Shown here: positions 34,857 through 35,461 of the stretch, one piece after another
Numbering within the stretch: position 1 is the stretch's first letter
Layout of the letters: the number at the start of each line of letters is the position of its first letter
NCBI RefSeq assembly: GCF_030848495.1
Contig: NZ_JAVDDT010000007.1
Span: 124,001 to 188,000 of the forward strand
Direction of reading: 5' to 3'
Length of the DNA: 64,000 nt
Origin: Natronospira bacteriovora
GTDB lineage: Bacteria; Pseudomonadota; Gammaproteobacteria; Natronospirales; Natronospiraceae
Made by a program: the position numbers and the translations under genes
The notes under the pieces: generated by a model
Told to the model about the DNA's origin: nothing
Database searches by the model: none
What the model saw: only the letters and a program-made list of their open reading frames with translations

Positions 34857-35035
34857 GATTATGAGGTGCCGCCAAATCAGCGGTTGGCACTTGCCTCGCA
34901 GGCAGCTGAATTCGAACCCGATGGAGGGTTCGACAAATTCGCCGGGAGCGAATTTGAACTGCGAAGCGAAGCGGAGCAGGCCCGGAGGGCGGAGCGCATG
35001 GATGCGCGGAGTAATCCCTCCCTCTCCGCCAGATT
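34838..35035 (+). repeat. tRNA-linked element after tRNA-Ser
   Basis: The last 19 bases of the tRNA plus GATT (34838-34860) are repeated exactly at 35013-35035. Between them are a CGAACCC/GGGTTCG hairpin with loop GATGGA (34912-34932), a 9-bp hairpin CAAATTCGC-CGGGA-GCGAATTTG (34934-34956) and GCGCAT-GG-ATGCGC (34994-35007). The same element type follows tRNA-Arg. No coding region is seen. Confidence 0.85.
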
Positions 35036-35110
35036 CGGCTAATACCACTAGGTGTGGTGATTGGCTATTGCGGGTGAAGTCTTGGTTCGAACCCGAAAGC
35101 GGGTTCGGCG

Positions 35111-35139
35111 TTGACGGAAGCCGCGTTTTTCAGCATAAT
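35111..35139 (+). promoter_or_regulatory. promoter of tRNA-Arg
   Basis: TTGACG at 35111-35116, a 17-base spacer and CATAAT at 35134-35139, followed by a GC-rich discriminator. This gives tRNA-Arg its own promoter after the tRNA-Ser element. Confidence 0.75.
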
Positions 35140-35177
35140 GCGCGGCTTTCCCGTCCAGGGAAAAGCGCAGAAAATCA

Positions 35178-35254
35178 GGGGCTGTAGCTCAGTTGGATAG
35201 AGCGTTCGGCTACGAACCGAGAGGTCGGGGGTTCGAATCCTCCCAGCCCCGCCA
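35178..35254 (+). tRNA. argV: tRNA-Arg (ACG)
   Basis: A 77-base tRNA. The acceptor GGGGCTG pairs with CAGCCCC, the anticodon loop CTACGAA gives ACG (read as ICG after deamination), and CCA is encoded. The order csrA, Ser(GCT), Arg(ACG) matches E. coli csrA-serV-argV. Confidence 0.97.
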
Positions 35255-35461
35255 TACAAAAACCCCCGCCGTGCAGGCGGGGGTTTTTTTATGGCTGATT
35301 GTGAAGATTATTCGAACCCCCGACCTCTCATTAAAAATGATAGCGGTTCGACAAATTTGCCGGGAGCAAATTTGGACTTTCGCCGGAGGCGGAAGGCCCC
35401 GGAGCGCAGCGGAGGGGTGAGGCCCAAGGACGGGCCGAACAATCCTCCCAGCCCCGCCATA
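35236..35461 (+). repeat. tRNA-linked element after tRNA-Arg
   Basis: The 3' end of the tRNA with CCATA (35236-35256) is repeated exactly at 35441-35461. Within are an inverted copy of the tRNA variable/T-arm region (35311-35329), the hairpin CAAATTTGC-CGGGA-GCAAATTTG (35352-35374) and GGCCC-AAGGAC-GGGCC (35421-35436). Both tRNA 3' ends are followed by a terminator. Confidence 0.85.
35263..35290 (+). terminator. intrinsic terminator of tRNA-Arg
   Basis: Stem CCCCCGCC / GGCGGGGG (35263-35270 with 35276-35283) followed by seven T residues. Confidence 0.95.

Follow-up and report, generated by a model that had tools for sequence, protein, structure and literature searches.

tRNA-linked repeats (TLRs) have been known since 1978 (Egan and Landy 1978 and Rudd 1999, as cited in PMC8144298), and PMC8144298 leaves their function unassigned save for three copies linked to 5S rRNA. 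TLRs, like the Rfam family RtT (RF00391), lie downstream of tRNA genes, often in tandem, and their 3′ 18–19 bp repeat the end of the upstream tRNA. According to the same paper, the 5S-linked copies of E. coli (RrA, RrB and RrF) bind CsrA in vitro. The CsrA/RsmA site is described in PMC7652899 as an ANGGAN hexaloop, with RUACARGGAUGU as the consensus from systematic evolution of ligands by exponential enrichment (SELEX) and CAGGA(U/A/C)G as the repeat of CsrB. Here we analysed a 64,000-nt stretch of Natronospira bacteriovora (the window; NCBI RefSeq assembly GCF_030848495.1, contig NZ_JAVDDT010000007.1, positions 124,001 to 188,000 of the forward strand), in which tRNA-Ser(GCT) and tRNA-Arg(ACG) are each followed by a multi-hairpin element (Table 1). 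We find that these elements are TLRs, of a variant with a pentaloop hairpin (H1) and a hairpin with a CsrA-type loop (H3), and that their stems covary around fixed GGA loops.

We observed that the last 19 nt of each tRNA are copied exactly at the end of its element, at a spacing of 175 (Ser) and 205 (Arg), so that the 3′ identity to the upstream RNA that marks TLRs is 19/19 in both. The elements are filed under TLRs by this tail copy and not under curated RtT, because the Ser element, which matches the RtT model over its full length, scores 21.3 bits against a gathering score of 45; the Arg element is not listed. Other Rfam matches (Thr_leader, Leu_leader and similar) were rejected as terminator hairpins below the cut-off. 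Within the tail copy the body occupies the position of the T-loop (GGTTCGA/CAAATT.../ATCC...CCA) and is preceded by H0, in which the T-arm is copied in antisense. Both elements fold with a better energy than 200 of 200 shuffles (z = −3.35 and −5.17).

The H1 hairpins had been noticed in a first-pass annotation as an example of compensatory change. They are present as described, their shared 28-mer pattern occurring twice in the window and never in 100 shuffles, and ARAGORN returns the two tRNA identities that had been proposed. The single pair change is also as reported, with C-G replaced by T-A on both sides of the stem and the CGGGA loop kept. The second hairpin is real, but the pairing given for it in the Ser element (GCGCAT/ATGCGC) implies a 2-nt loop and is better drawn as GCGC-ATGGAT-GCGC, versus GGCCC-AAGGAC-GGGCC in the Arg element.

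One compensatory change between two copies is weak evidence by itself, and we assessed covariation in larger sets. Across 14 bodies of this genome, which had been chosen through a hairpin pattern, 99.0% of 193 alignment cells are paired, with two-sided changes at 12 of 14 pairs. We also selected elements without reference to structure: among 100 tRNAs of three congeners (one of them, G001, in part: 11 of 27 listed regions), the only requirement was a tail copy matching at 17/19 or better. An H1 stem of at least 7 bp is present in 15 of the resulting 17 elements, compared to 0.6% of shuffled elements; of the two exceptions, locus L187 has one mismatch, and L191 closes a 4-nt loop with a 9-bp stem. 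With L191 excluded from the count, the remaining 16 H1 hairpins (14 distinct rows) are paired in 97.6% of 126 cells, 8 of 9 pairs are changed on both sides, and the pairing score is 0.878, compared to at most 0.123 for slid alignments. A class-wide alignment of 40 bodies, comprising the window and 39 that we chose from 54 loci of the order and class, shows pairing in 95.7% of 679 cells and two-sided change at 14 of 17 pairs. Covariation in this kind of larger alignment had been put forward as the check on the original observation, and it holds: in an R-scape-like test run with our own script rather than R-scape (independent substitutions on a FastTree tree as the null; column pairs at least 4 apart), the 12 column pairs that score best all belong to the stems of H1, H1b and H3, six of them with E < 0.05. 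The search model contained H1 and H3, without H1b.

The loop of H3 is near-invariant. When copies were chosen by H1 alone and H3 was scored as a stem of at least 4 pairs around A(N)GGAN, it followed in 100 of the 132 copies listed, compared to 2.1% in shuffles. C-G closes the loop in 99 of these 100 copies, which comprise 56 different stem-loop types. In this genome C-A(N)GGAN-G is found in 24 of 25 bodies examined, and both window H3 loops read ANGGAN. From the sequence we predict that the window elements bind CsrA.

Across this genome, the last 19 nt of eight of 43 tRNAs recur downstream of the tRNA at 18/19 or better; the match is 16/19 at two further tRNAs and 15/19 at one, and in the upstream control it never exceeds 14/19. 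A covariance model built on the 14 bodies of this genome (R1) recovered 28 strong and 2 weak copies. As expected of TLRs, which recur at several loci in tRNA or rRNA operons, 17 of the strong copies are at tRNA genes; the other 11 lie in or adjoin (CGACAA)n hexanucleotide repeats. Ten of these 11 were compared and have best-match identities of 88–100%; two pairs among them have identical bodies at widely separated sites, and one further copy of the hexanucleotide-associated subtype is found within a Cys/Gly tRNA cluster. Arrays of (GACAAC)n/(GTTGTC)n and (GATTAC)n are abundant in the genome (for example at L119, L123 and L127), often arranged in inverted orientation on either side of a short loop, with 173 overlapping 18-mer matches to hexanucleotide arrays genome-wide.

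Congeners differ as to which tRNAs have elements. Orientation in the genus is mixed and constant for a given tRNA: sense at Ser, Arg-ACG, Arg-CCG and Gln-CTG, and reversed at Arg-CCT, Lys-CTT, Val-GAC and Thr-CGT, with the GGA loops kept in reversed copies. Exact tandem units of 194 bp (Arg-CCT) and 213 bp (Lys-CTT) are also present. When different congeners are compared at the same tRNA, their bodies have a mean similarity of 0.60 (13 pairs), about the same as the 0.58 for bodies at different tRNAs of one genome (108 pairs). The idea that bodies at orthologous tRNAs are inherited vertically was therefore rejected, and bodies turn over. Degenerate reversed elements with H3 and without H1 are found at tRNA-Pro CGG (L086, which also contains an inverted repeat some 160 nt long) and tRNA-Phe (L097). 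Downstream of tRNA-Ser genes that have no element (L165, L075), a terminator is enclosed by a long inverted repeat, the repeated sequence being the tRNA 3′ end itself.

We examined insertion sites. With a tRNA required within 400 nt, 24 of the 54 class and order loci scored as sense, 5 as reversed and 25 as neither; one of the reversed loci (L216) is actually sense to its upstream tRNA-Glu, and several of the 25 lie in a partial tRNA copy that precedes an intact one. The body interrupts the T-loop of such partial copies at L203, L207, L218 and L221, the anticodon loop of tRNA-Ser at L134, L198 and L214 (L142 runs into a contig end) and the D-loop of tRNA-Ser at L153; further copies are at tmRNA (two) and 5S rRNA (two). 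Because it is a partial copy of the RNA gene that hosts the body, an intact tRNA remains alongside. Among the 132 distinct H1-pattern matches listed, A precedes the body in 127 and GA in 93, and the 57 with an intact tRNA no more than 500 nt away are all in sense. These data show a preferred insertion before A, mostly after GA, and notably in the tRNA T-loop at TTCGA^A, a palindrome that can take either body orientation. Hairpin loops as a general target were rejected: the joined flanks have at least 6 crossing pairs in 20 of 44 non-tRNA copies, compared to 44% when swapped, and under a stricter local criterion the count was 4 of 43, compared to 2% with swapped flanks; the T-, D- and anticodon-loop copies are nonetheless real.

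Two empty sites were found, each showing a precise insertion of 73–80 bp, and no clear target duplication, one of the marks of miniature inverted-repeat transposable elements (MITEs) along with terminal inverted repeats, was seen at them. Between tauA and mmuM, Enterobacter has a 73–75 bp insertion without counterpart in E. coli, and the right flank matches at 97.6% identity across 165 bp; a 23S-5S spacer of Serratia marcescens has a copy for which there is no counterpart in E. coli. A hexamer copy (L123) was rejected as a third case, its flanking genes being non-adjacent in G002. These comparisons show that the body is a dispersed unit, and the variant with H1 and a CsrA-type H3 is probably a small mobile element. 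The first-pass inference that the fold is under selection or copied as a unit is supported in both parts, by the covariation on one side and, on the other, because near-identical copies are dispersed and empty sites exist. Two consecutive ANGGAN hairpins, GGCGC-AGGGAT-GCGCC followed by CCTGC-ATGGAT-GCAGG, lie in the E. coli tauA-mmuM interval itself (L354) and are perhaps another repeat with GGA hairpins.

As to how the element travels, carriage by phages or plasmids was rejected, as the Ser element has no match in phages or plasmids and a Pseudoalteromonas copy none in phages. A REP-associated tyrosine transposase (RAYT) was rejected as mover in this genome: the sole Y1 transposase gene (Y1_Tnp) is flanked by repetitive extragenic palindromes (REPs; TGTGGGAG...) that are unrelated to the tRNA-linked repeats. 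L197 (1322-2936) holds a textbook REPtron, with a RAYT-type Y1 transposase gene flanked by three 69-nt copies (TGTGGGAGAGGCTTTAGCC...) of REPs or bacterial interspersed mosaic elements (BIMEs).

The body is widespread in Gammaproteobacteria. R1 found it in 12 of the 19 genomes searched in the order; in the class it was present in 117 of 369 genomes, representing 96 of 271 genera. In a phylum-wide set 37 of 299 genomes had matches, 17 within the class and 20 candidates in other classes, mostly at 30–41 bits; three of the latter (G391, G422, G441) have many weak matches, often equal-scoring, at 33–39 bits, which are perhaps distant relatives or a different hairpin repeat family. A fixed H1 pattern matched at least 118 stretches in named genomes and, among the matches listed, nearly all are by title gammaproteobacterial or unplaced proteobacterial; single Desulfosporosinus and Filomicrobium records may be contamination. 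The Rfam RtT model had matches in 17 of 56 relatives, and an H1-type copy at tRNA-Lys of Cedecea matches an annotated E. coli RtT across half its length. The E. coli K-12 copies inspected (tyrTV, argQZYV, lysT-lysZ) have tails of 18–19/19 and lack both H1 and the ANGGAN H3.

At the window locus itself the gene order is alaS-csrA-tRNA-Ser-tRNA-Arg (31583-35500). In K-12, serV is followed by argVYZQ, with TLRs between some arg genes; the E. coli order is csrA-serV-argV. The adjacency of the window elements to csrA may mean nothing beyond this conserved gene order.

Table 1. Features of the csrA–tRNA-Ser–tRNA-Arg locus (window coordinates).
Feature	Position	Strand	Remarks
csrA, global RNA-binding regulator	34451..34651	+	Directly 5′ of the tRNA-Ser/tRNA-Arg pair; Pfam CsrA 4.5e-26
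tRNA-Ser(GCT), intact	34767..34856	+	ARAGORN
H0, Ser element: T-arm in antisense, TTCGAACCC, and in sense, GGGTTCGA	34911..34933	+	
H1, Ser element: CAAATTCGC-CGGGA-GCGAATTTG, 9-bp stem, pentaloop	34934..34956	+	Hairpin of the first-pass annotation
H2, Ser element: GCCC-GGA-GGGC	34980..34990	+	
H3, Ser element: GCGC-ATGGAT-GCGC, ANGGAN hexaloop, CsrA-like	34994..35007	+	Motif as defined in PMC7652899
tRNA-Ser 3′-end copy, 19/19 plus 4 extra bases	35013..35035	+	Terminates the Ser element
tRNA-Arg(ACG), intact	35178..35254	+	ARAGORN
Terminator-like hairpin 3′ of tRNA-Arg	35251..35295	+	Precedes the Arg element
H0, Arg element: tRNA-Arg T-arm region copied in antisense (20 nt), a loop, and GGTTCGA in sense	35310..35351	+	
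H1, Arg element: CAAATTTGC-CGGGA-GCAAATTTG, 9-bp stem, pentaloop	35352..35374	+	Hairpin of the first-pass annotation
H1b, Arg element: TTTCGCC-GGA-GGCGGAA	35378..35394	+	
H2, Arg element: CCCC-(13 nt)-GGGG	35397..35417	+	
H3, Arg element: GGCCC-AAGGAC-GGGCC, ANGGAN hexaloop	35421..35436	+	
tRNA-Arg 3′-end copy, 19/19 plus 2 extra bases	35441..35461	+	Terminates the Arg element
Second terminator-like hairpin	35464..35492	+	3′ of the Arg element

We read the window elements as small, mobile, folded TLRs whose RNA possibly binds CsrA/RsmA as a growth-linked decoy, and place the probability of this reading at roughly 0.6. The hairpins first noticed are the first part (H1) of a folded body of 65–90 nt, H1-H1b-H2-H3, of a gammaproteobacterial TLR family. 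At tRNAs, where it is usually in sense, the body would be co-transcribed and excised with the tRNA precursor; H3 (C-A(N)GGAN-G), possibly together with H1 and H2, might then bind CsrA/RsmA as the decoy. The body may be moved in trans by a recombinase, or may have spread via gene conversion and slippage between tail copies. Several observations weigh against this reading. In PMC8144298, 19 E. coli tRNA-linked TLRs scored below 0.01 for likeness to CsrA small RNAs (sRNAs) and are predicted non-binders, which fits the motif-less K-12 copies, and the lack of the motif in those copies is itself a difficulty. SELEX hairpins mostly have 4 or fewer contiguous pairs (PMC7652899), and many H3 stems are long. 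The gathering scores of Rfam RtT and rsmX are not reached (19.1 against 56 bits for rsmX), the non-tRNA copies have no clear bias to sites downstream of a co-directional gene by crude open reading frame calling, and no candidate mobilising enzyme was found in the genome, its one RAYT-type gene having different repeats. Reversed copies in the genus would read UCC in the tRNA transcript, and a decoy acting as sense RNA does not explain them. A wider proposal, that 65–90 nt mobile elements across the class spread CsrA-decoy hairpins into spare tRNA-copy loops and so tie their output to stable-RNA transcription, with the functionless tRNA-linked repeats of E. coli as a derived branch that has lost the CsrA motif, is plausible but less likely than not.

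The fold could instead serve mobility at the DNA level alone, as single-stranded hairpins read by a trans-acting recombinase in the manner of REP/RAYT, with the likeness to CsrA sites coincidental. Either orientation at the palindromic TTCGA^A in the genus, copies within hexanucleotide repeats and at many non-tRNA sites, GGA loops retained in reversed copies and recent dispersal would all follow. However, the sense bias at tRNAs outside the genus (57 of 57 matches listed) and a near-invariant C-A(N)GGAN-G closing pair that is exactly the RNA motif of CsrA do not, and there is no candidate enzyme to go with it, the only Y1 transposase of the genome having unrelated REPs; we consider this account rather unlikely. 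If the elements were passive relics of tandem duplication of tRNA 3′ ends, inert hairpins homogenised by recombination and neither functional nor actively mobile, the exact 194-bp and 213-bp tandem units and the lack of a known function of TLRs (PMC8144298) would be accounted for. This idea is already disfavoured by covariation around invariant loops, and the spread to non-tRNA sites and the empty sites make it improbable. A device for tRNA maturation or termination only, in which the element spaces two terminators and aids 3′ processing, would suit the terminator-like hairpins that flank the Arg element and the sense bias at tRNAs, but orthologous tRNAs of congeners do without the element and the same body occurs off tRNAs, and we rate it a little lower still.

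In conclusion, the covarying fold, the near-invariant CsrA-type loop, the wide host range, the insertion preference and the empty sites make both the function and the movement of TLRs testable. If the decoy reading is correct, these elements would be a mobile source of CsrA-binding RNA that is coupled to growth rate. Like REPs and BIMEs moved by RAYTs, they are short, dispersed, palindromic and non-autonomous, and they differ in that the REPs at the Y1 transposase of this genome are another sequence. With CsrB, RsmX and RsmY they share the form of a short multi-hairpin RNA (here predicted) with GGA in the loops and a motif resembling CAGGA(U/A/C)G; those sRNAs have their own promoter and are not known to have a tRNA tail, unlike the tRNA-linked repeats. 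RrA, RrB and RrF are TLRs with GGA motifs that bind Hfq as well as CsrA in vitro (PMC8144298); they are linked to 5S rRNA and described in Enterobacteriales only, and binding by the present elements is a prediction. The known TLRs and RtT themselves share the GCCC-GAA-GGGC hairpin and the (A)GTAATCC junction in addition to position and tail. In contrast to the K-12 copies inspected, the present elements have both H1 and the ANGGAN H3, and they occur in both orientations and off tRNAs, with D- and anticodon-loop insertions elsewhere. The body with a pentaloop H1 and a C-A(N)GGAN-G H3 is new relative to the literature that the search covered.
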